Assembly: GCA_015066005.1 (NCBI GenBank)
Contig: SVPF01000021.1
Location: 1-44,355 of the forward strand
Length of the DNA: 44,355 nt
Reading direction: 5' to 3'
DNA from: Oscillospiraceae bacterium
GTDB lineage: Bacteria > Bacillota > Clostridia > Oscillospirales > Acutalibacteraceae
The number at the start of each line of letters is the position of its first letter. The first letter of the stretch is position 1. The translations under genes and the position numbers were made by a program. Of this stretch, positions 30,182 through 44,328 are shown piece by piece. Under the pieces are notes generated by a model, which was not told the origin of the DNA, made no database searches, and saw only the letters and a program-made list of their open reading frames with translations.

Positions 30182-32656
30182 ATGTTTTCTCACGAACTAT
30201 TAGAAAAAGCTAAAAATGGTGATATGCTTGCGCAATATCAGCTTGCCTGCGCTTATAAGGATGGCAAGGGAACCGAAAAAAATGAAAAAGAAGCGTTTAA
30301 GTGGTATATGGAATCCGCAAAGCAGGGTTATCCCGATGCACAGGCTTATGTCGGTTATTTTTACCGCTGGGGCAAGGGTGTTAAGGAAAACGATAATGAA
30401 TCGGTAAAGTGGTACACTATAGCTTATAAAAACGGGTGTGCCTGGGGCGCCAGAAACCTTGCTTATTTTTATAAGTGGGGCCGTCAGGTTAAAAAAGACC
30501 TTAATAAAGCCTTTGAGCTTTTTACCTTTGCCTCTGAAAACGGTGACCGCGAGGCAATCTACCGTCTGGGCTTTTGTTATAAAAATGGCCACGGTGTTGA
30601 AAAGAATTTAGCCACCGCCTTTAAAATGTTTGAAAACGCCGCCGCAAGAGGATATAACGATGCTTCCTACGAGCTTGGCTTTTTTTACAGGGACGGTTTG
30701 TCGGTAGAAAAAGACCTTACAAAAGCCTTTGAATGCTTTATGAAGGCCGCCGAGGGTGGCAGTGCGGAGGCAATGTATCAGGTTGGTTATTATTATAAGT
30801 ACGGCAAGGGCGTAGAAGCCAACGCCGAAGAATCAATTAAATGGTTTAAAAAGGCAATTGATAAAGGCGATTTAGATTCTTGCTATTCGCTTGGCAGAAC
30901 CTATAAGGACGGCATTGGTGTGCCTAAGGATATGAAGGAAGCCTTTAAATATTTTATGCTTGGCGCTTTAAAAAACCATGCAAGTTGCCAAAACACAATT
31001 GGTATTTATCACGAATACGGCTATGGCGGGTTAGAGGCTAAAAATTATGTTGAAGCGGCGCGTTGGTATAAGTCTGCTACCGAGCTTGGACATGATATAG
31101 CACCATGCAATTTGGCGCTTATTTATGAATATGGCCGCAAAATAGAGCAAAATTATAGTGAGGCTATGCGCCTTTATCAGCTATCAGCCGAAAGGGGATA
31201 TACTAATGCATTTTATCGCATTGGTAGAATGTACAGGTATGGCTATGGTGTTGAAAAGACCGATGTTAAAGCCTTAGAATATTTTCAAATTGCCGCAGAT
31301 AAGGGACATGCCACCTCGCAATATGAGGTGGGACGTCACTACCGTTACGGCTGGGGTGTCGAAAAGGATATAAATAGGGCTGTTAAGTTTTATACCTTAG
31401 CCGCTGATAACGGCAATACTGATGCGATATATTATTTGGCGGATATGTATTATAAAGGTAATGATATACCTCAGGATTATGAAAAAGCGCTTTATTATTT
31501 TGAAAAAGGTGCAAGCTTAAACGATGGCGCTTGCCTTAATTCGCTTGCCATAATTTACGGCGTCGGCAAGGCTGTTGAAAAGAACATTGAAAAGTCAATA
31601 GATCTGTTCCACAAGGCCGTGGAAGCCGGTAATAAATATGCCATGTATAACCTTGGTTGTCGTTATTTTTCGGGTAACGTTATTGAACGAGATATTGATG
31701 AAGCAATACGCCTTTTGAATATGGCGGTTGAAAAGAATTACGGTGACGCCGCATATAAAATGGGCACCATTTATATGAACGGTGAAAATGGCGTAGAAAT
31801 TGATATTAACAAGGCTTATAACTATTTTCTAAAAGCAAAGGAATGCGGTTATGAATGTGATTTTCCGCTCTCCTTCACCGAAAAGTCGCTTAACATTACA
31901 CCGTCTACTGCTGACGATATGCGAAAATACGCACACGAAATGCGCAATTTGGACGTCTACACGGTTGAAAAGGTTGAAATGGACCTTAAGGCCGATTTTG
32001 GCGATTATTGGAACATTTTAGCACCGGAATCGCAGGTGTGCCTTATTACAGGTCTTACGGTTTATCTTGACTTCTTTAACAAGTACGGCGACAACCGCAA
32101 AATTGACTATTCATCATCCATAACACAGCTTTGCAAGGCTATGGAAATTTTGTCCTACAACCTTTTCAGAACAAAGTATGTAAAATATCTTGTGGATAAC
32201 GAAATACCGCCCGAAAGGCATACAAACGTTAATGGTATGGCAGTAAAAACCAGGGACGGCAGGGCGTTTTACCCTGAAGAATCCTCTGGCTTTACCTTAG
32301 GAAGTGTGCCCCGTGTAATAATACATAATTACAGTAGTGACCACACCGAAACGGGAAATAAGAAAAAATCTATTTCTGACGATTTTTTGGATTACTGCCA
32401 AAACGTGTTGTTCAAGGGCAGCTTTAAAGACCAAAAGGAATTAACCGAATATTTAAGGGATTTCGTTAATGGTGTTGAGGATATAATTCTTATCCGCAAC
32501 CCATCCACACACGATGAGGTAATGGATATTATCCGTGTGGAAGCCTGCGGCGACCTGCTTTTAAAGGTTAAAAAGATGATTTATCACCTTTTGGAAAAAA
32601 TAAACTTAACCGAGCTTGAAAAGAAAAGCTATAAAGTGAAAAATAAAAAGTCCTGA
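30182..32656 (+). CDS. Sel1-repeat protein with C-terminal HEPN-like domain
   Basis: 824 aa. ATG 30182 is chosen because AAGGGGG ends 6 nt upstream; ATG 30176 is too close. Residues about 12-552 are fifteen 36-residue Sel1-like repeats (pattern A.Y.LG..Y..G.GVEKD...A...Y..AA..G). The C-terminal 240 residues are helical and contain LIRNPSTHDEVM, an RX4H motif (Arg772, His777) of the kind used by HEPN ribonucleases and scaffold domains. Sel1 repeats usually bind proteins. There is no signal peptide, so it is cytoplasmic. Flanked by a structured leader and an inverted-repeat element, it is a candidate for a defence, toxin or stress-response RNase; this is inference. It ends KNKKS inside the left end of element 1. 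Confidence 0.85.
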   Translation: MFSHELLEKAKNGDMLAQYQLACAYKDGKGTEKNEKEAFKWYMESAKQGYPDAQAYVGYFYRWGKGVKENDNESVKWYTIAYKNGCAWGARNLAYFYKWGRQVKKDLNKAFELFTFASENGDREAIYRLGFCYKNGHGVEKNLATAFKMFENAAARGYNDASYELGFFYRDGLSVEKDLTKAFECFMKAAEGGSAEAMYQVGYYYKYGKGVEANAEESIKWFKKAIDKGDLDSCYSLGRTYKDGIGVPKDMKEAFKYFMLGALKNHASCQNTIGIYHEYGYGGLEAKNYVEAARWYKSATELGHDIAPCNLALIYEYGRKIEQNYSEAMRLYQLSAERGYTNAFYRIGRMYRYGYGVEKTDVKALEYFQIAADKGHATSQYEVGRHYRYGWGVEKDINRAVKFYTLAADNGNTDAIYYLADMYYKGNDIPQDYEKALYYFEKGASLNDGACLNSLAIIYGVGKAVEKNIEKSIDLFHKAVEAGNKYAMYNLGCRYFSGNVIERDIDEAIRLLNMAVEKNYGDAAYKMGTIYMNGENGVEIDINKAYNYFLKAKECGYECDFPLSFTEKSLNITPSTADDMRKYAHEMRNLDVYTVEKVEMDLKADFGDYWNILAPESQVCLITGLTVYLDFFNKYGDNRKIDYSSSITQLCKAMEILSYNLFRTKYVKYLVDNEIPPERHTNVNGMAVKTRDGRAFYPEESSGFTLGSVPRVIIHNYSSDHTETGNKKKSISDDFLDYCQNVLFKGSFKDQKELTEYLRDFVNGVEDIILIRNPSTHDEVMDIIRVEACGDLLLKVKKMIYHLLEKINLTELEKKSYKVKNKKS

Positions 32657-32661
32657 CTTTA

Positions 32662-32696
32662 GGCGTTGTACCCGTAAGGATACAACGCCAGTTTTA
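32662..32696 (+). terminator. Hairpin after the Sel1-HEPN-like gene
   Basis: GGCGTTGTA (32662-32670) pairs with TACAACGCC (32681-32689), 9 bp, followed by AGTTTTATT. It is probably the terminator of the upstream gene, although it also forms part of the element 1 left end. Confidence 0.6.
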
Positions 32697-32862
32697 TTCG
32701 CCTTGCGGCGAGTTATATTGCTTCGCAGTTATATTCGGCTACCGCCGAGTGATATTGCCTTCGGCAGTTTATTGGCGAATAAAATATCACTGAAACCGCA
32801 GGTTTCAATAACACTTTGCCGTTAGGCAAAATATCACCGTGAGACCTGTCTCACAATATCAC
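32692..32862. repeat. Array of small unlike hairpins joined by AATATCAC-type linkers
   Basis: Seven mini-hairpins of different sequence lie in tandem: TCGCC/GGCGA, TGC/GCA, TCGGC/GCCGA, TGCC/GGCA, TGAAACC/GGTTTCA (32791-32807), TTTGCC/GGCAAA (32815-32830) and GTGAGA/TCTCAC (32839-32854). Linkers are AGTTATATT or AGTGATATT in the left half and AATATCAC or AATAACAC in the right half, which are reverse complements. The left part is also enclosed by a perfect 11-bp pair, TTTTATTCGCC (32692-32702) with GGCGAATAAAA (32774-32784). Stems differ but linkers are kept. Confidence 0.7.
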
Positions 32863-32890
32863 TATTAAAATATTTTCTCTTGAGATAGTA

Positions 32891-33000
32891 AAACGGATGT
32901 GCAGAAATTCTACACATCCGTTTAATATTTGTCTCATACCGTAGCAAGCAGGGAAAATGTACGGCACATTTCCCAATCTTTAGGAGAACCTAAAACCCGT
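32891..33000. repeat. Three-hairpin conserved block, copy A
   Basis: Hairpin 1 is AAACGGATGTG/CACATCCGTTT (32891-32923). The 65-nt block 32935-32999 then holds hairpin 2 (GGGAAAATGT with ACATTTCCC) and hairpin 3 (TTTAGG AGAA CCTAAA). About 83% of the 65-nt block is identical to copy B at 39975-40039, in the same orientation. Both copies lie just 3' of a minus-strand orphan gene (11 nt here). Confidence 0.75.
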
Positions 33001-33010
33001 TATAATCATT

Positions 33011-33268
33011 TTATCTCTCTGATTGAATAATGATTTCATCTTTTTCAAAAAATTCAATAATTCTTTTGCGTGAAAATGGCCAGTTTTCTTCTTGCACAAA
33101 ACTATCTTCAAAGAAAAAAATTATTTCATCACAGGACATAGGCTCAAGATTTGTTATATACTTTTCATAATACTCATCCTGAATTTCTTCCCAACAGGAA
33201 TATTCTTTTTTACTCAGTAACATGCCATCATTCAAATAAATAATAACTGCTTTATTTCCCACACTCAA
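33011..33268 (-). CDS. Hypothetical acidic protein of element 1
   Basis: 85 aa, family not recognised. TTG start at 33268 is used because GTGAGG lies 5 nt upstream; a GTG two codons later is the alternative. It is acidic and aromatic-rich (EEIQDEYYEKYI, EIIFFFED), with no membrane helix and no signal peptide, so probably a small soluble cytoplasmic protein. A TATAAT on the minus strand (plus-strand 33304-33309) is a likely -10. Its stop lies 11 nt from the conserved three-hairpin block. The position matches that of the 221-aa gene in element 2, but the proteins are unrelated, as expected for cargo genes. Confidence 0.6.
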   Translation of the reverse strand: MSVGNKAVIIYLNDGMLLSKKEYSCWEEIQDEYYEKYITNLEPMSCDEIIFFFEDSFVQEENWPFSRKRIIEFFEKDEIIIQSER

Positions 33269-33342
33269 AAAACCTCACAAATTCATATTTATCGTTTCGT
33301 TGTATTATATCATAATTCAACCGACTTTTAAAGAGAATATTT

Positions 33343-33375
33343 AAAAATGCCCGTGATTCCGGAAAATCACGGGCA
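33343..33375 (-). terminator. Terminator, minus strand, after SulP gene
   Basis: TGCCCGTGATT (33348-33358) pairs with AATCACGGGCA (33365-33375), 11 bp with a CCGGAA loop. The minus strand continues with TTTTTAA. It lies 43 nt past the SulP stop and inside element 1. Confidence 0.85.
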
Positions 33376-33418
33376 AAATTCGTTTTTGAAAACTTTCCTT
33401 TATAGTACGACTCGTATG

Positions 33419-34675
33419 TCAGGACTTTTTTGTTATCAATTTCTTTATTAAAACAAACAAATAATGCATTACCATACCTACTGCAATTGCAACTACAAGG
33501 TCGAAAACTACGGTTAAAACACAGGTGGTTACAAGCACTAAAATGTCGGTTATGTGGGAGGTTTTAATAATGTGAACAAATTCACGCCATTCACTCATAT
33601 TATAAGCCACAACAAACAAAATTGCGGCAATAGCAGGCATTGGAATAAGCGCGGCGTAGGGCATAAGCACTACTAAAATAAGCAATAAAACAATTGCGTG
33701 AACAATGCCTGAAATGGGGGACTGACCGCCGTTTTTAACGTTTGCCGCTGTTCTTGCAATAGCGCCCGTTGCAGGAATACCGCCAAACAGTGCCGAGCAA
33801 ATGTTACCCGCACCTTGCGCAATAAGCTCGGTATTGGAATTGTGCTTATCGTTTATCATACCGTCCGACACAACGCAGGATAAAAGCGATTCAATAGCCG
33901 CCAAAGCAGCAATTGTAAAGGCGTTTGGAAGCATTTTTATAAATAAATCAAAATTCGGCAAAGCAAATTTTGGAAGGCTGGAGGATACGGTATAAAGTGA
34001 GCCGATGGTGTTAACCTTCATACCTAAAAGTGCTACGAGGACTGCCGAAACAATTACAGCAATAAGTGACGGTGGAATTTTGTTTATGTATTTAATTTTG
34101 GGCCAAACAATTAAAATTGCAAGTGAAATTGCACCAATTAAAACCGCCTGCCAATTTATTGTGCCAATGGTTTTTACAACCTCAATTAGCTTTTCAAGGG
34201 TTTCAATGGGGGAATGGGTAAAGGTAAGGCCGGCAAAGTCCTTAACCTGACCGATTAAAAGGGTAAGCGCAATACCGCCCGTAAAGCCAACCGTTATTGT
34301 GTGGGGTATAAACTTAATAAGCTTTCCAAGCCTTAAAAGGCCCATTAAAATTAAAATAATACCTGCGGTTACGGTTGCCATTGCAAGCCCTTCAAGACCG
34401 TTTGTCGCCACAATGCCTGCAACAATGGTTGCAAAGGCGGCTGTCGGGCCCGAAATTTGCACACGGCTGCCACCCAAAAGTGCAATAACAAAGCCCGCAA
34501 CAATGGCGGTGTAAAGGCCCTGCTCGGGTTTAACCCCCGAAGCAAGTGCAAGCGCAATTGAAAGGGGCAGGGCAATAATTGCAACAATAATACCTGCAAT
34601 AATATCGTTTATAAGCTTTTGCTTTGTGTAACCCTTCATGCTTTCAATAAGCTTTGGGTAAAAAATATTTTTCAT
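33419..34675 (-). CDS. SulP-family anion transporter lacking a STAS domain
   Basis: 418 aa. About ten to twelve membrane helices carry the SulP signatures (ALPLSIALALASGVKPEQGLY, GGSRVQISGPTAAF, ARTAANVKNGGQSPISG). Members move sulfate, bicarbonate or dicarboxylates in exchange with protons, sodium or other anions. Most SulP proteins have about 550 aa with a cytoplasmic C-terminal STAS domain; this one stops right after the last helix (VLIKKLITKKS). Its last codons (AAA AAG TCC TGA) lie inside the right inverted repeat of element 1, so the STAS domain may have been cut off by insertion. AGGGGA precedes the ATG. Confidence 0.9.
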   Translation of the reverse strand: MKNIFYPKLIESMKGYTKQKLINDIIAGIIVAIIALPLSIALALASGVKPEQGLYTAIVAGFVIALLGGSRVQISGPTAAFATIVAGIVATNGLEGLAMATVTAGIILILMGLLRLGKLIKFIPHTITVGFTGGIALTLLIGQVKDFAGLTFTHSPIETLEKLIEVVKTIGTINWQAVLIGAISLAILIVWPKIKYINKIPPSLIAVIVSAVLVALLGMKVNTIGSLYTVSSSLPKFALPNFDLFIKMLPNAFTIAALAAIESLLSCVVSDGMINDKHNSNTELIAQGAGNICSALFGGIPATGAIARTAANVKNGGQSPISGIVHAIVLLLILVVLMPYAALIPMPAIAAILFVVAYNMSEWREFVHIIKTSHITDILVLVTTCVLTVVFDLVVAIAVGMVMHYLFVLIKKLITKKS

Positions 34676-34686
34676 AATTATCCCCT

Positions 34687-34715
34687 TAAAAAGCCCCCTA
34701 CCGTAAGGTAAGGGG
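34687..34715 (-). terminator. Terminator, minus strand, after ddh
   Basis: CCCCCTACC (34694-34702) and GGTAAGGGG (34707-34715) form a GTAA-loop hairpin with one mismatch. The minus strand then reads CTTTTT. Confidence 0.8.
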
Positions 34716-34723
34716 AAATTTTA

Positions 34724-35707
34724 TTAAAGTAAATTCTTGCGAAGCTCTTCAGCACTTTTTTCCGATAAAAGCACAGGCGGAATGTCAAATACAGTCTTAC
34801 AACCGCAGTCGCCTTGCTTATTTAAGCGGTATGCAGCACGAGCATAGGCTACCAATACGCTTGAAGTAAATTCGGGGTTAGAATCAAGCTTTAGGCTGTA
34901 TTCAATAATATGTGTGTTTTCGTTTTCCCAGCCTGTTTTACCGCTTCTTATAACCGTGCCGCCGTGTGGAAGGGCGCTGTGCTCGCGCTTCATTTCCTCC
35001 ATTGTTATAAAATGCACGGTGGTGTCATAATCAGCAAAGTAATTTGGCATTTCTTTAATTTGCTTTTCGATAAGTGTCTTGTCAGCGTTATCATCGGCTA
35101 CCACAAAGCAAACGCGGGTGTGCTTTTGGCGGGTGGAAAGAGTGGGGTTTTCGCCGTTTCTTACAGCATTTACAGCACTTTCAACAGGTACTGTATACTG
35201 GCGGGCATCAATAACACCGTCAATACGTCTTATGGCATCGGAATGGCCTTGGCTTACGCCCTTGCCCCAAAAGGTATAATCCTTACCGTTTGGCAAAACG
35301 GTGTTTGCATAAAGGCGGTTAAGGGAAAACATACCGGGATCCCATCCAACTGAAATAATGCCGATTTTACCGCCTGTTAAAGCGTTTTTATTAACATTTT
35401 CAAAATGGTCGGGAATTTTGGCGTGGGTGTCAAAGCTGTCAATAACGTTAAAGTATTTAGCATATTCGGGGGTTTGTACGGGTAAATCAGTAGCACTGCC
35501 GCCGCAAATAATTAAAACATCAATTTCGTTTTGTTTGTTTATAAGCTCATCAATGTGGCAAACCTTAGCCGATTCGGTCAAAATTTTTACCGTTTCGGGT
35601 GCACGGCGGGTAAACACGTAAGAAAGCTTCATATCGCTTGTGTTTTTAATTGCGCATTCAACACCGCGACCTAAGTTGCCATATCCTAAAATTGCTATAT
35701 TTATCAT
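34724..35707 (-). CDS. ddh: meso-Diaminopimelate D-dehydrogenase
   Basis: 327 aa, the normal length. The N-terminal NADP-binding motif IAILGYGNLGRGVECAI is followed by VISVGWDPGMFSL-type and FWGKGVSQGHSDAIRRI stretches typical of this enzyme. It makes meso-diaminopimelate from tetrahydrodipicolinate, ammonia and NADPH in one step, supplying lysine and cell-wall peptide cross-links. Cytoplasmic. GGAAGTGA precedes the ATG. It has its own promoter and terminator and so is monocistronic. Confidence 0.95.
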   Translation of the reverse strand: MINIAILGYGNLGRGVECAIKNTSDMKLSYVFTRRAPETVKILTESAKVCHIDELINKQNEIDVLIICGGSATDLPVQTPEYAKYFNVIDSFDTHAKIPDHFENVNKNALTGGKIGIISVGWDPGMFSLNRLYANTVLPNGKDYTFWGKGVSQGHSDAIRRIDGVIDARQYTVPVESAVNAVRNGENPTLSTRQKHTRVCFVVADDNADKTLIEKQIKEMPNYFADYDTTVHFITMEEMKREHSALPHGGTVIRSGKTGWENENTHIIEYSLKLDSNPEFTSSVLVAYARAAYRLNKQGDCGCKTVFDIPPVLLSEKSAEELRKNLL

Positions 35708-35727
35708 AAAATCACTTCCAATGGTAA

Positions 35728-35756
35728 ATTATATTATAAATATAACACACTGTCAA
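35728..35756 (-). promoter_or_regulatory. Promoter of ddh
   Basis: The minus strand reads TTGACA (plus 35751-35756), a 17-nt spacer and TATAAT (plus 35728-35733). The -35 overlaps the stop codon of the upstream ATPase gene. The leader is about 15 nt, with no room for a lysine riboswitch. Confidence 0.85.
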
Positions 35757-36313
35757 TTATTTATTTCAACTTTTTTTGCACCCAAAAGCTCGGCCTCCTC
35801 GGGATTATGGGTTATAAGAATAACGGTTTTATCCTTGGTAAGTGCATTTATTTTATCGACTGCCGACTGTAAATTCTTTTCATCAATGCCGTTAAAGGCT
35901 TCGTCTAAAATAAGTAAATCAAAAGGGACCGATAACGCCCTTGCAATTGCGGCTCTTCTCTTCATACCGCCCGAAAGGGAGGCAGGGTATAGGTCCTTGG
36001 TTTCACCAATGCCCAGTGCGGTGAGGATTTCGCTTGCCAAGGCTTCATTACCGCCCACAAGGGTAATGTTTTGCATTACGGTGTAAAAGGGCAAAAGGCG
36101 GTTTTCCTGAAATACAACCGAAGGGGTTATATTTGCTTCAATTTGCCCCTTTTGCGCCTTTAAAAGCCCTAAAATAAGCTTAATAAGTGTGGTTTTACCA
36201 CAGCCCGACGGCCCCGAAAGCCAAATTTTTTCCCCCTTTTTAATTTCAAGCGAAAAGTTGTTAAATACCTCTTTTTCACCGTATGAAAAGGTCAAATTAC
36301 TTATTTTCAGCAT
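35753..36313 (-). CDS. ABC transporter ATPase (nitrate/sulfonate/taurine type)
   Basis: 186 aa. ATG 36313 is chosen because GAGGAGG lies 7 nt upstream; a TTG two codons earlier is poorly spaced. It has Walker A GPSGCGKTT, signature LSGGMKRR, Walker B LLILDEAFNG and the switch His in VILITHNPEEA. It is about 50-60 residues shorter than usual SsuB/TauB proteins, ending soon after the H-loop. It energises the permease whose gene end it overlaps by 17 nt. Confidence 0.92.
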   Translation of the reverse strand: MLKISNLTFSYGEKEVFNNFSLEIKKGEKIWLSGPSGCGKTTLIKLILGLLKAQKGQIEANITPSVVFQENRLLPFYTVMQNITLVGGNEALASEILTALGIGETKDLYPASLSGGMKRRAAIARALSVPFDLLILDEAFNGIDEKNLQSAVDKINALTKDKTVILITHNPEEAELLGAKKVEINN

Positions 36314-37070
36314 TTGCAAACCTCCTCACAATTCGTTTTAGGGTAAATTCCAAAATAATGGAAAGAATGGCCACAACAAAGGTCAGAGCAAAAACTGCGG
36401 GAATGTCAAGATAGCTTTTATTTTGGTCCAAAAGCGTTCCAAGCGCTACTTGCGGTCGGCAAATAACCTCTGCCGCAATGCCCGATTTCCACGCAAAGCC
36501 AAGGGCTGTCATACAGGTTGCAATAAATTGCGGCATAATAAAGGGCAGTTTAATTTTAAAGAAAATTTTAGCAGCAGAAAGCTTATAAACCCTTGCCATT
36601 TCAATATATTTTTCATCAATTTCCGAAAGTGCGGTTTGTACTGTAGACCAAACCATTGGAAGCACCATTAAAAACGCAATAAAAACGGGAAGGTCCTTGC
36701 TTTGAAACCAAAAGAATGCAAGAATAATAAAGGATGCAACCGGCACGGCTTTTATTACCTGTAAGGCGGGGCGGGTAAAGCTTTCAAAAAGGGGAAATTT
36801 GTTTGCAATAACACCACCGATAAAGCCCACTGCAACACCTAATATAAAGCCAATTATTATTCGCAAAAGGGAATATAACACAGCAAGATAAAACTGCCCC
36901 GTTTGACCAAGGACAAGCAGTGCCTTCAGGGTTTCAAGCGGGGTAGGTATAAGTAACTGTGAATTGACAATTAAGGCGGCTGCCTGCCATATCAACAGCC
37001 AAAGTGCTGATATGGCGGCGCCTTTTAATACTTTTTTAAACAAATTATTTAACTCCATAATAGAAATCAT
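36297..37070 (-). CDS. ABC transporter permease (SsuC/TauC type)
   Basis: 257 aa with six membrane helices and an EAA-like loop (EMARVYKLSAAKIFFKIKLP). It overlaps both neighbours: the start lies inside the 3' end of the binding-protein gene and the stop inside the ATPase start. Neither possible ATG (37070 or 37058) has a clear ribosome site, so it is probably translated by coupling. Substrate follows the binding protein and is not known. Confidence 0.92.
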   Translation of the reverse strand: MISIMELNNLFKKVLKGAAISALWLLIWQAAALIVNSQLLIPTPLETLKALLVLGQTGQFYLAVLYSLLRIIIGFILGVAVGFIGGVIANKFPLFESFTRPALQVIKAVPVASFIILAFFWFQSKDLPVFIAFLMVLPMVWSTVQTALSEIDEKYIEMARVYKLSAAKIFFKIKLPFIMPQFIATCMTALGFAWKSGIAAEVICRPQVALGTLLDQNKSYLDIPAVFALTFVVAILSIILEFTLKRIVRRFANAENK

Positions 37071-38055
37071 CAGCGGGTAATTTGCCGCCTACGCTCTTGG
37101 GGTTTAAATCAAATAAGAACTTGAGGTAAGCCGAAAGATTGGTTTTCATTTCCTTACCGTCCTGGTAAACAATGTTGCAGTTTGGAATAGCCTTTTTAGC
37201 AACTGCGGCGGGGGCGATAATTTTATACTTTTCGCAGTTGACGGCTGTTGCTTCAACATCGCTGTTGGTTTTTTCAATAGAAGCCTTGTATTCCTTAAGG
37301 AAGGCGGCAAGGGCATCGGCATTCTTTTCGGCAAATTCCTTTCTAACAACCAAGCAGCCCATTGTAAGCTGTTCGTCGTGTGCTTTTTCCCATTCATCAT
37401 TAAGGTCAATAGCAATTTTTGCGGTCGGTACCTTAACGGTAATGTTGGTAGCAACAGGCTGAGGTGCAATAACTACAACCTTATCGGCATTGGGATTAGC
37501 CATTTTTGCTACAAGCTCGGTCGGCTGAGCAACAAATTCAACCTTAACATCCTTACCTACTTCAAGGTTGTTGTTTTTAAGAATATCGTTAATAATATAT
37601 TCGGGGTTTGCGCCCTGACCGGTTGAATAAACGGTCAAGCCCTTAAGGTCGTCAATAGAATCAATTTCGTAACCCTTGGCAACAACATTCAAAACACCAA
37701 GTGTATTAACGGCAAGCACCTGTACATCAACGTCGGGGTTATTGTAAAGAACAGAAGCCAGGTTTGTTGCAACTGCGGCAATATCAGCCTCGCCGTTTTT
37801 AAGCTTGGCAATAATTTCATCATTGTTTGCGGCTAGAGCAATATTGTATTTAAGCGCGCCCTCGCCCTTTTCGGCCTTTTCCATAAGGTTTGCAAGACCA
37901 ACGCCTGTGGGGCCCGCAATACCATAAATGTTGCATTCAACACTTGTAAGGTCAGGGGCTGAGCTTTCAGGTGTGGAATCGGTATTACCGTTGCCACATC
38001 CCGCAAAAGCAAGTACAAGCAAAAGGGTTAATAAAATGCTAATTAATTTTTTCAT
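37045..38055 (-). CDS. ABC transporter substrate-binding lipoprotein (NMT1/TauA-like)
   Basis: 336 aa. The lipoprotein signal (KKLISILLTLLLVLAFAGCG) places the mature N-terminus at Cys20. The body has the two-lobe fold of SsuA/TauA/ThiY binding proteins (GIAGPTGVGLANLM, GEADIAAVATNLASVL, LTVYSTGQGANPEYIINDIL). GPTG and GQGANP are likely ligand loops. Candidates include sulfonates, thiamine precursors or metals; the sequence does not decide. AGGTGA precedes the ATG, which lies inside the end of the Crp-type regulator gene. Confidence 0.9.
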   Translation of the reverse strand: MKKLISILLTLLLVLAFAGCGNGNTDSTPESSAPDLTSVECNIYGIAGPTGVGLANLMEKAEKGEGALKYNIALAANNDEIIAKLKNGEADIAAVATNLASVLYNNPDVDVQVLAVNTLGVLNVVAKGYEIDSIDDLKGLTVYSTGQGANPEYIINDILKNNNLEVGKDVKVEFVAQPTELVAKMANPNADKVVVIAPQPVATNITVKVPTAKIAIDLNDEWEKAHDEQLTMGCLVVRKEFAEKNADALAAFLKEYKASIEKTNSDVEATAVNCEKYKIIAPAAVAKKAIPNCNIVYQDGKEMKTNLSAYLKFLFDLNPKSVGGKLPADDFYYGVK

Positions 38056-38701
38056 AATGAATCACCTTTATATAATTATTATCTTTTATAATATAACCGT
38101 TTTGTTCCAAATCGTTTAATGCCCTGTAAAGTGAAGCACGGCTTATGCCAAGCGTTTTTGAAACTAACGACATATTTTTAAAATTACTTATTTCACCGTT
38201 TTTATCGGCAAGGGAAGTGAGGTATTTATACACCGTATTTTCGGTGCCGCTGCAGGAAATAACATTAAGCTTTTTATTTAAAAAGCGCACCTTTTCGGAT
38301 AAAAAGGTAATATAGTTTATTGCGGTTTGGGGATAATTTGAAAAAAGTGTTTTCAGCTCATCCTCACAAACAAACAAAACCTCTAAATCGGTTTTGGCGG
38401 TAATTTTGCTTATATAACATTCGTCGCCGCCAAAAAGGGCCGCAACGCCAAACGACATTCCCTTTGAAAAGGTTTTTAAATATGTTTCGTTTTGGTTATC
38501 ACTTGAAGCGGCTGCACTGCCTTTTATAATATAGCCTACAGCGTTTTTAAAATTGCTGCTGCCGTAAACGGTTTCACCCTTTTTAAATGAAACAGGTGAG
38601 GAAAAAGCAGAAATAATTTCGTTTTTGTCGTTTTCACTTAAATTTTTAAGTAGAAAAAAATTATCAAATTTTATTATAAACACCCCCGAAAAGTGTTTCA
38701 T
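38039..38701 (-). CDS. Crp/Fnr-family transcriptional regulator
   Basis: 220 aa from ATG 38701; a GTG at 38710 would add three residues. An N-terminal cyclic-nucleotide-binding-like barrel (FKKGETVYGSSNFKNAVGYI, GVAALFGGDECYISKITAKT) is joined by a long helix to a winged helix (SLVSKTLGISRASLYRALND). No Cys cluster for Fnr-type iron-sulfur binding is seen. First gene of the ABC importer operon, so it most likely controls it. The predicted transcription start is only about 10 nt from the start codon and there is no ribosome site, so it may be leaderless. Confidence 0.88.
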   Translation of the reverse strand: MKHFSGVFIIKFDNFFLLKNLSENDKNEIISAFSSPVSFKKGETVYGSSNFKNAVGYIIKGSAAASSDNQNETYLKTFSKGMSFGVAALFGGDECYISKITAKTDLEVLFVCEDELKTLFSNYPQTAINYITFLSEKVRFLNKKLNVISCSGTENTVYKYLTSLADKNGEISNFKNMSLVSKTLGISRASLYRALNDLEQNGYIIKDNNYIKVIHYEKIN

Positions 38702-38712
38702 TTGATACACTT
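38691..38712. promoter_or_regulatory. Palindromic operator at the Crp/Fnr regulator start
   Basis: AAGTGTTTCA, two T, then TGATACACTT: the two 10-bp half-sites match in 9 of 10 positions. It covers the predicted transcription start and start codon of the regulator gene, directly downstream of its -10. The likely reader is the regulator itself, acting as autorepressor. Confidence 0.6.
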
Positions 38713-38718
38713 TATTAT

Positions 38719-38746
38719 ATTATAGCATATTTTTTCACCCTGTCAA
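38719..38746 (-). promoter_or_regulatory. Promoter of Crp/Fnr-ABC importer operon
   Basis: The minus strand reads TTGACA (plus 38741-38746), a 16-nt spacer and TATAAT (plus 38719-38724), both at consensus. Confidence 0.85.
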
Positions 38747-38786
38747 TACTATTTATAAAAAATCTGCAAAAAATAAAAATTAGGAC

Positions 38787-38815
38787 TTGACAAAATGACT
38801 ATCTTTCGTTATAAT
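38787..38815 (+). promoter_or_regulatory. Promoter of tRNA operon
   Basis: TTGACA (38787-38792), a 17-nt spacer and TATAAT (38810-38815), both at consensus, 21 nt before the first tRNA. Confidence 0.92.
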
Positions 38816-38836
38816 ATACTAGTCGCTTTAAGTTAT

Positions 38837-38913
38837 GGCTGTATAGCTCAGTTGGCTAGAGCATGCGGTTCATACCCGCAGTGTCATTGGTTCGAATCCA
38901 ATTACAGCCACCA
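38837..38913 (+). tRNA. tRNA-Met (CAT)
   Basis: 77 nt with encoded CCA. The acceptor stem is GGCTGTA/TACAGCC, the anticodon stem TGCGG/CCGCA, with loop TTCATAC and anticodon CAT at 38871-38873. The acceptor stem is fully paired from the first base, so it is not an initiator. A tRNA-Ile with lysidine-modified CAT cannot be excluded by eye. Confidence 0.93.
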
Positions 38914-38918
38914 TATTC

Positions 38919-38994
38919 GGCCCGTTGGTCAAGAGGCCTAAGACACCGCCCTTTCACGGCGGTAACACGAGTTCGAATCTCGTACGGGTCACCA
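38919..38994 (+). tRNA. tRNA-Glu (TTC)
   Basis: 76 nt with encoded CCA. The acceptor stem is GGCCCGT/ACGGGTC (one G-U), the anticodon stem CCGCC/GGCGG, with loop CTTTCAC and anticodon TTC at 38953-38955. It lies 5 nt after tRNA-Met and is co-transcribed. Confidence 0.94.
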
Positions 38995-38996
38995 AC

Positions 38997-39036
38997 AAAA
39001 AGTCCCTTTTGTCAACCAGACAAAAGGGACTTTTTT
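38997..39036 (+). terminator. Terminator of tRNA operon
   Basis: AAAAAGTCCCTTTTGTC pairs perfectly with GACAAAAGGGACTTTTT (17 bp, AACCA loop), giving a T6 tail. Confidence 0.95.
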
Positions 39037-39111
39037 GAGTGATGTTTGCCTGCGGCAAATGATGTCGTTTCACTAATGATGTCGCTGACGCTAATGATGA
39101 CGGCTTCGCCT
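39037..39111. repeat. Second small-hairpin array with TGATGTC linkers
   Basis: TTTGCC TGC GGCAAA (39045-39059) is followed by three weaker hairpin-like pieces (GTTTCAC, CGCTGACGC, GGCTTCGCC), each preceded by TGATGTC or TGATGAC and spaced 16-18 nt apart. It resembles the array at 32692-32862 in plan but uses a different linker, and most stems are weak. Confidence 0.5.
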
Positions 39112-39160
39112 AGATTTGTTTGTGGAAAAATAGTATAATTCTCTTGAAAGGAGTGGTTAT

Positions 39161-39505
39161 ATGCCGAAAAATTATTTGCTGATATATTCTGAGCAGCTTG
39201 CAACTGAAATTGAATTGCTTTGTCAAAGCATTAAGGCCCCGTCTAACACTCTTTTCCAAATTCGTAAAAGTTCAAGCAGTATTTATGCAAATATCCGTGA
39301 AGCTCAGTATGCTCACTGATAGGCTGATTTTATTGCCGAACTTCAAATCGCTCTTAAAGAAGCAAACGAAGCAGGATATTGGTTAGAACTGCTATTCAAA
39401 ACAAATTACATATCCGAGGAAGAATACAAATCGCTTGACTCTGCTTGTACAAGTATACAGGTTATGCTTATTTCATCCATTAACACCGCAAAGGAGAACG
39501 CATAA
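39161..39505 (+). pseudogene. Four-helix-bundle (S23/IVP-like) protein gene with two in-frame stops
   Basis: From ATG 39161 (AAAGGAG upstream, TATAAT at 39134-39139) the frame reads 52 codons to TGA then TAG at 39317-39322. It then continues in the same frame (ADFIAELQIALKEANEAGYW, LELLFKTNYIS) to TAA 39503-39505. Together these give the helix pattern of four-helix-bundle proteins related to those encoded in 23S rRNA intervening sequences (IRKSSSSIYANIREAQY). The downstream half is still protein-like, so the break is recent. Its final stop overlaps the next ATG (TAATG). Confidence 0.75.
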
Positions 39506-39834
39506 TGATAGGTCAAATCGTTACAGTAACCGTTGACAGACCGCTAGGCAGTTTTCATCCCGAATATCCCAATATATGCTATCCTATCAATTACGGTTAT
39601 ATTCGGGGAACATTGGCGGCAGACGGTGAAGAAGAGGATGCTTATGTTTTGGGAGTAACCGAGCCCGTGTCGCAATTTACCGGAAAAGTTATTGCGATTA
39701 TCAACCGTAAAAACGATATCGAGCACAAATGGGTAGTGGCGCCGGAAGGTGTACTGTTTACAATGGAAGAAATTGCAAATTTAACCTACTTTCAAGAGCA
39801 GTATTTTGAATCTGAAATTACATTGCTATATTGA
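39505..39834 (+). CDS. Small family I inorganic-pyrophosphatase-like protein
   Basis: 109 aa, far shorter than the usual 160-180. It keeps the YPINYGYIRG core and a following acidic stretch DGEEEDAYVLG where true enzymes have DGDPLDVLVL. It also has the VIAIINRKNDIEHKWVVAPE strand region. Loss of the Pro and change of the spacing suggest altered activity or a different phosphate ligand. Start overlaps the upstream pseudogene stop (TAATG), with AAAGGAG just before it, so the two genes formed an operon. Confidence 0.7.
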   Translation: MIGQIVTVTVDRPLGSFHPEYPNICYPINYGYIRGTLAADGEEEDAYVLGVTEPVSQFTGKVIAIINRKNDIEHKWVVAPEGVLFTMEEIANLTYFQEQYFESEITLLY

Positions 39835-39931
39835 TAATTTAACTTTATCCTTTGCATTTAATAATACATTTTTAGTTATTCTTTCAGCAAAAAAAGCCTT
39901 GTCGTAAGGGTCGTACTCTAAAGGACAGTAA

Positions 39932-40039
39932 AAGAGCTGTGTAGAAAATTTCTACACAGCTCTTAATTTTGTCGCATACCATAACAAGCAGGGAAAATGT
40001 ATATCACATTTTCCACTTTTTAGGAGAACCTAAAACCCT
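39932..40039. repeat. Three-hairpin conserved block, copy B
   Basis: Hairpin 1 has a perfect 16-bp stem, AAGAGCTGTGTAGAAA (39932-39947) with TTTCTACACAGCTCTT (39949-39964). Hairpin 2 is GGAAAATGT/ACATTTTCC and hairpin 3 TTTAGG AGAA CCTAAA, within the 65-nt block 39975-40039. Relative to copy A the lower stem of hairpin 1 has changed on both arms (C-G to G-C, G-C to A-T, A-T to C-G). GCATACC at 39974-39980 can also pair with GGTATGC at 40070-40076. Confidence 0.75.
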
Positions 40040-40089
40040 TTAAATGTTGCATCCCGGATAAGTTGTGCGGTATGCAATAGAGGGAATCG

Positions 40090-40755
40090 TTAATAATATC
40101 CTCCAAAAACATCTTGAAAATATCTATATGATTCTTCATCAGTTAAATAACTGCGCATATTTGACGATGTCATATATGTGGAATCATAGATTTCTTTTTT
40201 TGAGTATTTAGAAATAATTTTATCAAACTCAACGATGTTTTTACTATTACCAAAACTATTTAGTCGAAACACCTTATGGCTTAGCATCTCTACAACTTCA
40301 CCTGACTCAAAGGTGATGTCGTACTGTATACCATATTGAACCCCCAATTCGACTTTGGTGATGTTCTCATAGTTATATACTTTTGACACATTACCAAAAA
40401 CATCTATTTTTTTAATAGAATTTTGGTCGGCTACTGTTCCGTTTTTAAAGAATAAAAATGGCATCAACAAACAACAACCAATACATACAAAAATTACAGT
40501 CATTTTAGTTTTGTTGGACTTTAACCATCTAATTGTATTTTTATTAATTAAAAATGAGCCGAAAATAAGTAAGCAACCGTTGATACAGGCAATGATTATA
40601 GAACCCTTTGGGCAAAAATATAAATAATGATCATATACAAGTCGATTTAAAAACCATATAGCACAAAAATATAAGACAGCTAGAACTGAAAATATTGCTA
40701 GTGTTAAAACAATATAATTATCGTTTTTTTGTTTTGTTTTTGATTTTATCTTCAT
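40090..40755 (-). CDS. Hypothetical membrane protein of element 2
   Basis: 221 aa, family not recognised. The cytoplasmic N-terminus is basic (KIKSKTKQKN). Three membrane helices lie at about residues 15-37, 50-70 and 84-104. A soluble C-terminal half follows with a beta-strand-like KVYNYENITKVELGVQYGIQ and an aromatic tail (SYRYFQDVFGGYY). GGCGGTGA precedes the ATG. The helix and strand layout recalls small bacterial PH-like membrane proteins, but this is weak. It is the only gene in element 2, with its own promoter. Confidence 0.75.
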   Translation of the reverse strand: MKIKSKTKQKNDNYIVLTLAIFSVLAVLYFCAIWFLNRLVYDHYLYFCPKGSIIIACINGCLLIFGSFLINKNTIRWLKSNKTKMTVIFVCIGCCLLMPFLFFKNGTVADQNSIKKIDVFGNVSKVYNYENITKVELGVQYGIQYDITFESGEVVEMLSHKVFRLNSFGNSKNIVEFDKIISKYSKKEIYDSTYMTSSNMRSYLTDEESYRYFQDVFGGYY

Positions 40756-40775
40756 ATATTCACCGCCTTATTTGC

Positions 40776-40804
40776 ATTATAACATAAAAAGATGCGTTTT
40801 ACAA
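40776..40804 (-). promoter_or_regulatory. Promoter of element 2 membrane protein
   Basis: The minus strand reads TTGTAA (plus 40799-40804), a 17-nt spacer and TATAAT (plus 40776-40781), inside the right inverted repeat of element 2. Confidence 0.75.
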
Positions 40805-40865
40805 GAAATGTCCTTAACGGTATAACACCTACGACAAGGCTTTTTGAAAAAATATTTGTTAACCG

Positions 40866-44040: not shown

Positions 44041-44328
44041 TCGGGGAGACCTAAGCCGAGGTTGTAGAACCGCCAAGACCTTCCAAGCGAAGCGAGCGAA
44101 AGAGTTTTATACAACAAGAATCCAGGTTGCTCTTGGAGGTGGCAAAGACAGGTACAAGGAATAATGATACTTCCGTAACTCGCGGTCCGGCCACAATGAA
44201 GGCGGGAAGGTGAAACCCCTATGGACTTGGTTCGCAGCCGAGCGTTTAACGACTTCCCTTTGCGTTTGGGGTGTTGAGAACAAGTAAAACGCACGACCAA
44301 AGCTCAAAAGCATATTTTGAGTTTTGGT
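44041..44328 (+). ncRNA. Highly structured RNA-like region, possibly an HEARO/omega-RNA or group II intron 5' part
   Basis: From about 44040 the sequence becomes clearly richer in G+C than its surroundings and is densely self-complementary. Stems include ACCTTCCAAG (44078-44087) with CTTGGAGGT (44132-44140), GGGAAG (44204-44209) with CTTCCC (44253-44258), CTTGG (44226-44230) with CCGAG (44238-44242), GCGTTT (44242-44247) with AAACGC (44287-44292), and a 13-bp hairpin at 44297-44327. Minus-strand ORFs here look like by-products. Such RNAs precede IscB or intron-encoded proteins, which would start beyond the window. The class is a guess; that it is structured is well supported. Confidence 0.45.

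Follow-up and report, generated by a model that had tools for sequence, protein, structure and literature searches.

Small cargo cassettes inside split terminators of an Oscillospiraceae bacterium, and a candidate serine recombinase partner

Mobile insertion cassettes (MICs), for example those related to IS231 in Bacillus cereus, carry cargo but no transposase between inverted ends that match the ends of an autonomous element. Integron gene cassettes, in turn, are single-gene units, each with a structured element beside its gene, that are exchangeable between genomes. Here, we describe two small elements, E1 (32645-33431) and E2 (39891-40845), that invite comparison with both. They lie in a 44,355-nucleotide stretch of DNA from an Oscillospiraceae bacterium (GenBank assembly GCA_015066005.1, contig SVPF01000021.1), called the window in what follows. 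With a probability of about 0.8, E1 and E2 are small non-autonomous integrative expression cassettes that would be moved in trans by a multi-targeting large serine recombinase (LSR) of the DUF4368 kind, landing in terminators.

The closest known kinds are MICs and cis-mobilizable elements (CIMEs). Like a MIC, a cassette of this family places cargo without a transposase between inverted ends (called ENDs here) that match an autonomous element. However, the cassettes would have an LSR element as their partner, with a 2-bp core at the junctions and the loop of a terminator as the target. CIMEs are defined as keeping attL and attR while lacking the genes for integration and transfer (PMC5704250). 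These cassettes likewise keep ENDs that resemble attL and attR, and no integrase or transfer genes were found inside them in the subset of open reading frames (ORFs) scanned with Pfam. Unlike CIMEs, they are very small, they carry many unrelated cargos in a conserved carrier, and they form a dispersed multi-copy family, not the decayed partner of a tandem.

Two kinds of autonomous element are also relevant. The integrase of Tn4451 recombines at identical 2-bp sequences and has low target specificity (PMC5704250). Integrative and mobilizable elements (IMEs) with serine integrases of this type share the LSR with the present system, whose LSR-side elements have relaxase-like, Mob-like and TnpV genes. 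The present system differs in its target, the loop of a terminator (core AA in five matched cases), and in having cassettes that encode neither LSR nor relaxase. LSRs with a DUF4368 domain are frequent in a multi-targeting clade, where Cp36 prefers a target with an A-rich 5' side, an AA core and a T-rich 3' side (PMC10083194). Both the domain and this A-rich/dinucleotide/T-rich motif recur here. However, the word "terminator" is absent from the main text of PMC10083194, as it is from those of PMC5704250 and PMC13137831, and non-autonomous cassettes were not met in the first of these texts. Literature searches, covering titles and the openings of abstracts, gave no description of terminator-targeting LSR elements or of such cassettes among the matches listed.

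Insertion into the loops of terminators

An earlier note on this DNA, made from its letters alone, had described E1 and E2 as segments bounded by perfect inverted repeats of 13 and 16 bp, with homologous ends and a common inner block. The segments are real, their coordinates in the window are confirmed, and they belong to a large family. Their four ends do align, giving a common inverted END of ~22 bp with the consensus NGNGTYGTACYCTWAAGGACAGT. The pattern GTCGTACTNTAAAGGA, at up to 3 mismatches, has 5 matches in the window against 0.9 expected; the two exact ones are the right end of E1 and the left end of E2. The inner block is conserved between the two elements, and neither contains a recombinase gene.

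The perfect repeats are also present, but for the most part they are not the ends of the elements. The inverted arms of E1 (32633-32657 and 33418-33442) are 84% complementary over 25 nt, with the perfect portion AAAAAGTCCTGAC/GTCAGGACTTTTT. Those of E2 (39891-39927 and 40809-40845) are 81% complementary over 37 nt, with the perfect portion AAAAAGCCTTGTCGTA/TACGACAAGGCTTTTT. In both, the left perfect repeat is AAAAA followed by a stem and the right one is a stem followed by TTTTT, and the stems of E1 and E2 are unlike. An interrupted terminator would look like this, and the outer repeats are mostly the two arms of an intrinsic terminator that was split by insertion into its loop. The mobile ENDs begin 1-5 bp further in, and the outer repeats of E2 extend through the 2-bp core. 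The note had also found the end types "swapped" relative to the block. That impression is accounted for in part by an additional array of small hairpins (32689-32890, with a match to Gut-1 RNA), which E1, unlike E2, carries between its left end and its block.

Relatives preserve the unsplit site. Comparison was made with 70 genomes of the genus, the bacterium's own included (G numbers; L numbers are loci collected), 27 of which have DNA of the SulP gene beside E1. The collinear locus in a related species, G045, has the same Sel1-repeat and SulP genes around an intact terminator, AAAAAATCCTAACC-ACTT-GGTTAGGATTTTTT (L268). G017 has an intact terminator next to SulP, AAAAATCCTAACC-AAGC-GGTTAGGATTTTTT (L267). 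An intact hairpin with its T-run at an orthologous empty site was found for E1 only. The E1 site of G044 probably holds a different cargo, its two halves lying on separate contigs: one has the left junction with the same stem (L065), and the other has the same right stem, a different tail and a 260-aa ORF read by eye as a nucleotidyltransferase.

These loci bear on the view that E1 and E2 are fixed units, that is, ordinary immobile genes that stand between terminators of their own and of the adjacent genes. Such a view would explain the promoter-like boxes and the location of genes between hairpins, and it could cite G044, where the E1 site is also occupied. However, the empty terminator in G045 and G017 contradicts it, the right half at the same site in G044 is different, and homologous ENDs surround unrelated cargo at unrelated loci. 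The view has next to no chance of being right.

The same geometry recurs across the family. Loci L001-L003 and L051-L234 were examined for convergent pairs of ENDs no more than 3 kb apart. This gave 71 distinct pairs, 48 of them with an A-run in both flanks; 27 of these 48 have an identical flank stem of at least 10 nt. When the flanks were re-paired 200 times, the mean was 0.04 and the maximum 1. The 27 stem-sharing elements, 343-2135 bp in length, all have the same dinucleotide on the same strand at both junctions, at positions -3 and -2 between flank and END. This core is TA in 18, TT in 4, AT in 3 and AA in 2. TA and AT are, of course, palindromes, and carry little information; all six non-palindromic pairs (TT, AA) are direct. 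Identity of this kind is as would be expected of the core of a serine recombinase. The consensus of the END, built from 46 distinct ends, forms inverted, attP-like arms around the core. As a separate observation, a terminator-like hairpin at L086:1480-1540 has a loop that consists only of a 26-nt END palindrome, possibly a minimal remnant or precursor.

A different enzyme might be suspected from the same junctions. Inverted ENDs, small size, transposase-free cargo and TA at 18 of the 27 junction pairs would suit MICs or miniature inverted-repeat transposable elements that depend on an IS630/mariner-type DDE transposase, with inverted terminal repeats and duplication of a TA target. This does not agree with the TT, AT and AA cores of the other 9 pairs, and the recombinase that adjoins these ENDs is an LSR. 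Further, no transposase was recognised among the ORFs listed for the 27 elements, nor by Pfam among 20 proteins (a subset of the ORFs), although no search was aimed at DDE elements with these ends. A DDE transposase is an improbable agent here.

The block pattern occurs 3 times in the bacterium's own genome and in 13 of the 70 genus genomes, its own included, against 0 of 70 for the reversed control; its recurrence is therefore not due to chance. The END pattern (up to 3 mismatches) occurs in 34 of the 70 genomes at 92 places, and its reversed control in 11 at 12 places. At least 118 stretches of GTDB contigs contain the exact END pattern. Among the matches listed, the titles are mostly those of ruminant-gut Clostridia and Oscillospiraceae assemblies; Coprococcus catus and an Erysipelotrichaceae bacterium are among the few exceptions. 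The 21-base END pattern has no match in viral contigs. A 15-mer from the block does match 47 stretches there, and these were set aside, since chance alone would produce matches to a 15-mer in a collection that large.

The earlier note had proposed a non-autonomous, cargo-carrying mobile cassette, to be given up if no further copies existed or if conserved synteny revealed fixed gene-plus-terminator units. Its proposal has been strengthened instead: copies with other cargo genes exist in this genome and in relatives, the E1 site is empty in some of the latter, and homologous cargo occurs at two sites. Absent from it were the terminator as the target, the 2-bp core common to both junctions, and the sharing of ENDs with LSR elements.

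A conserved carrier for unrelated cargo

Seventeen of the 27 paired elements contain the block at up to 4 mismatches; the other 10 have different types of head. Block-bearing cassettes have a common head (END, hairpin, block) and a common tail (END, hairpin, promoter-like box), with TATAAT in the 190-nt tail of 15 of the 17 (18 of the 27 overall). The order is thus tail terminator, promoter, cargo, 3' block and head terminator, and this class would function as a self-contained, insulated expression unit. In cassette tails, for example at the right end of L077, the promoter region GTTAGTCAAGTTGTGCTATAATACAACTAAC has a dyad over the -10-like box and resembles an operator that cassettes of unrelated cargo have in common.

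The cargo, usually one gene per cassette, is diverse. Pfam (E up to 0.01) matched 13 of 20 cargo proteins, 4 of the 20 being from elements outside the 27 (L105, L108, L177, L144). The kinds include TetR regulators, a cation efflux protein, an alpha/beta hydrolase, NUDIX, EamA, helix-turn-helix proteins, a leucine-rich repeat protein and DUF4932. For the cargo proteins of E1 and E2, neither Pfam (E up to 0.001) nor PADLOC gave a match. A 3.4-kb candidate element with an imperfect stem (L144:392-3770) holds two genes between its ENDs, one for type IIG restriction-methylation and one for specificity. Homologous cargo can be found at different targets (L103 and L077, 71% identical over 114 aa). 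Because a conserved head and tail surround unrelated cargo, it would appear that cargo is exchanged inside a standard carrier.

Decay would offer another history. Here, the cassettes would be CIMEs, remnants of complete LSR elements whose genes were deleted, with no active mobilization in trans. Retention of ENDs like attL and attR, absence of the recombinase, and the few elements without clear cargo (L084 = L104, L159, L173) speak for such a history. It is harder to reconcile with the presence of related cassettes at different sites, or with the conservation that cassettes show in their heads and tails (L056 and L169 agree at 88% over 389 bp and 93% over 134 bp). Cassettes and LSR elements, by contrast, differ in what lies inside their ENDs, among the sequences listed. 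No IME remnant was recognised inside the paired cassettes. Decay is a rather unlikely explanation.

The block appears to be structured. In an alignment of 50 distinct blocks, the proposed structure has 91.8% paired cells, against 38-57% when it is slid, a control biased in its favour, as the structure was read from the same sequences. There are 66 cells with double, compensatory changes, and helix 2 pairs in only 78% of cells. On the mRNA strand of the cargo, 31 cells are G-U and 14 are A-C, 22 of the 31 coming from two pairs. Because wobbles of the mRNA strand outnumber those of the other strand in this way, the data favour a block that is RNA, in the 3' untranslated region of the cargo. In seven loci compared with Rfam at E up to 1, the block matched none of its families.

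A conserved hairpin with compensatory changes, located beside single genes of unrelated kinds, might of course be an attC-like folded site for a tyrosine integrase. These cassettes do work like the exchangeable single-gene units of integrons, with their structured element beside the gene. However, the element is delimited by two inverted ENDs, both external to the block, most cassettes have a promoter of their own, the recombinase would be a serine recombinase, and no integron platform was seen (no search for an integrase was made). The 10 paired elements without the block, the TATAAT in most block-bearing tails and the wobble pairs that suggest RNA all argue the same way. An integron-like origin is very improbable.

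A second repeat, the 15-bp inverted repeat GATAAATNNGAATTT, lies further in. Of 26 block-bearing elements examined by eye (the 17, with 9 others of imperfect or weaker pairing), 10 have a copy on either side of the cargo. Among 18 further heads, 10 have a copy on their side of the cargo, that of L371 being partial. In E1 the only copy is in the tail, and E2 has none. The dinucleotide at the centre of the repeat is TG in the head and AA in the tail in 7 of the 10 cassettes with both copies; in the remaining 3 the two are equal. Different central dinucleotides on the two sides recall laboratory recombinase-mediated cassette exchange. By this analogy, exchange in gut Clostridia might have two tiers, integron-like but without an integron, where the LSR moves the carrier between terminators and cargo is swapped by a second, directional and site-specific exchange at GATAAATNNGAATTT. 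We consider this unlikely. Because the two copies are mutually complementary in the mRNA, a role in 5'-3' pairing of the message is as open as one in recombination.

We asked whether Gut-1 might define the element, and rejected this. The bacterium's own genome has 32 Gut-1 matches, and Gut-1 is found in 56 of the 70 genomes at E up to 0.001 (47 above the family cut-off). Of 14 control genomes, one has a match, E. coli, and this scores below the cut-off. The motif TTTTATTCGCC, which joins END and array in E1-type heads, has only 4 unrelated matches in 30 Gut-1 loci. Thus, the Gut-1 "RNA" of Rfam looks like a dispersed repeat here, partly within cassettes. In a literature search for Gut-1 RNA, the term was absent among the matches listed.

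Recombinase elements with the same ENDs

The same END stands directly after the C-terminus of an LSR in L170, L136 and L180. All three proteins have Recombinase, Zn-ribbon and DUF4368 domains by Pfam; those of L170 and L180, which are 79% identical, also have a Resolvase domain, and that of L136 is cut at its N-terminus. LSRs (E up to 1e-30) are present in 41 of the 70 genus genomes. Those at least 60% identical to P0001 are in G066 (82%), G035 (98%, a fragment), G014 (95%, a fragment), G054 (62%) and G055 (60%), and in the first three of these an END lies just behind the LSR. An exact END behind an LSR was found, among the matches listed, at L235 (G066) and L263 (G035) only. Distant LSRs (about 30-45% identity) were dismissed as partners: among the matches listed they adjoin other sequences, by eye several times tRNA genes.

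Cassettes and LSR elements share exact 20-nt versions of the END. One version occurs beside a visible LSR in L180, L314 and L263 and in the cassettes L056, L111 and L169; a second occurs beside a visible LSR in L170, L136 and L320 and in the cassettes L152 and L227. Some LSR loci in this comparison (e.g., L124, L141) end before the LSR, and are classed by their flank.

The LSR elements have another type of end as well, GCGTCGTACAC or GCATCGTACCC, followed in L189 by DUF6809 and TnpV genes (Pfam), with similar-looking ORFs in G054. The genes in L189 were tried as cassette cargo and discarded: the LSR element of G054 has comparable ORFs inside its left end. The element in G066 encodes a ParB protein (above cut-off) and relaxase-like and Mob-like proteins (both below the curated NCBIfam cut-offs), and L170 has a Pfam relaxase domain. 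Six genomes (G014, G035, G054, G066, G074, G077) have both types of end. In all of these but G014, the core is AA at both ends and the two flanks have a stem of 7-21 nt in common. As a control, 20 pairs of ends taken across genomes have 4-9 nt in common, nearly all A-rich. Judged from their sequences, LSR elements are mobilizable, and are located in terminator-like sites with matching stems at both ends in 5 of the 6 genomes.

A mechanism for the cassettes can be proposed. An LSR, supplied in trans by a mobilizable element, would circularize a cassette by joining its ENDs, and the attP of the circle would be the two inverted ENDs around the 2-bp core. Integration would then be at an attB with an A-tract and a T-tract ~11-15 bp to either side of an A/T dinucleotide. 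This would be the geometry of a bidirectional terminator, and the cassette would land between genes, with none broken. The half-site profile supports such an attB, with an A-tract at -18 to -14 (1.06-1.87 bits) against 0.06-0.17 bit at each stem position from -12 to -6. Cargo would be swapped within the standard carrier. Because the geometry of terminators fits the A-rich/dinucleotide/T-rich motif, targeting may need no folded DNA. We infer circularization, movement by the LSR and any exchange at the inner repeat from comparison of sequences.

Several observations weigh against this mechanism. No circular form, excision or transfer was seen in the sequence data, and the relation of LSR to END is one of adjacency only (L170, L136, L180, G066, G035, G014). 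Only 5 of the 70 genomes have an LSR at 60% identity or more, two of these as fragments at contig ends, so most cassettes are in genomes with no detected partner. The bacterium's own genome (88% complete) has no close LSR, its best match being 29% identical. The search match to the G066 LSR counts two internal stop codons, although an open frame of 570 aa is nonetheless there. In none of the six genomes does one contig contain both ends of the LSR element, and the ends in G014 must belong to two insertions, because their flanks share only GAAAAAA. For E2, the comparison gave no exact empty site: the neighbour of E2 is present in 20 of the 70 genomes, and the adjacent sequence differs in the nine relatives' loci inspected. 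An exact stem is absent from 21 of the 48 pairs; by eye, seven of these have imperfect stems (L088, L117, L128, L142, L171, L183, L220), four (L125, L137, L177, L205) are at odds with the pattern, and the others resemble chance pairs of motifs. The AAAA required of the flanks biases the A content of the half-site profile, though not the position of its A-tract. Last, the cores of the LSR elements are AA in the five matched cases, versus TA in 18 of the 27 cassettes. A serine recombinase needs only that its cores match, and a different LSR may serve the TA cassettes.

Features of the window and what they mean

Features of E1 and E2 in the window, with their positions and strands
Feature	Position	Strand	Remark
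E1 target, left split-terminator arm (AAAAA + GTCCTGAC)	32645..32657	+	overlaps stop codon of Sel1-repeat gene; intact orthologous terminator in G045, G017
E1 left core dinucleotide TA	32660..32661	.	putative crossover
E1 left END	32663..32682	+	putative attL, element side
Gut-1 RNA match (RF01706)	32689..32760	+	in mini-hairpin array of E1-type heads; 54.5 bits, gathering 50
E1 head hairpin, terminator-like	32891..32923	.	inverted repeat, downstream of cargo
E1 conserved structured block	32935..32998	-	would be cargo 3' untranslated region
E1 cargo, 85 aa	33011..33268	-	
E1 tail	33279..33393	-	repeat GATAAATATGAATTT, -10-like box TATAAT, terminator-like hairpin
E1 right END	33394..33413	-	putative attR, element side
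E1 right core dinucleotide TA	33415..33416	.	
E1 target, right split-terminator arm (GTCAGGAC + T-run)	33418..33431	+	
E2 target, left split-terminator arm (AAAAAGCCTTGTCG)	39891..39904	+	
E2 left core TA	39905..39906	.	
E2 left END	39908..39927	+	
E2 head hairpin, terminator-like	39932..39964	.	inverted repeat
E2 conserved structured block	39975..40038	-	
E2 cargo, 221 aa	40090..40755	-	
E2 tail	40756..40808	-	TATAAT and ribosome-binding region
E2 right END	40809..40828	-	
E2 right core TA	40830..40831	.	
E2 target, right split-terminator arm (CGACAAGGCTTTTT)	40832..40845	+	

Both elements lie between convergent genes: E1 between the Sel1-repeat gene and the SulP transporter gene, and E2 between a pyrophosphatase-like gene and a hexapeptide acetyltransferase gene. 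Elsewhere in the window, a pemK RNA motif (RF02913, 69.6 bits) is located near the end, at 44161-44224. A reading frame at 39162-39500, preceded by two tRNA genes and by small TGATGT hairpins in a row, starts MPKNYLLIYSEQLATE and has an in-frame stop at about 39317; related ORFs are in L097 and L114.

What, then, would such cassettes mean? The family suggests that mobile genes use terminators in general as safe places to land, since insertion into the loop spares both neighbours. This, in turn, would supply a natural reason for the published A-rich/T-rich motif of the multi-targeting DUF4368 recombinases, which are in development as tools for genome engineering. For the gut Clostridia, it would mean a widespread stock of small, insulated cassettes holding regulators, transporters, hydrolases and, possibly, a restriction-modification pair.

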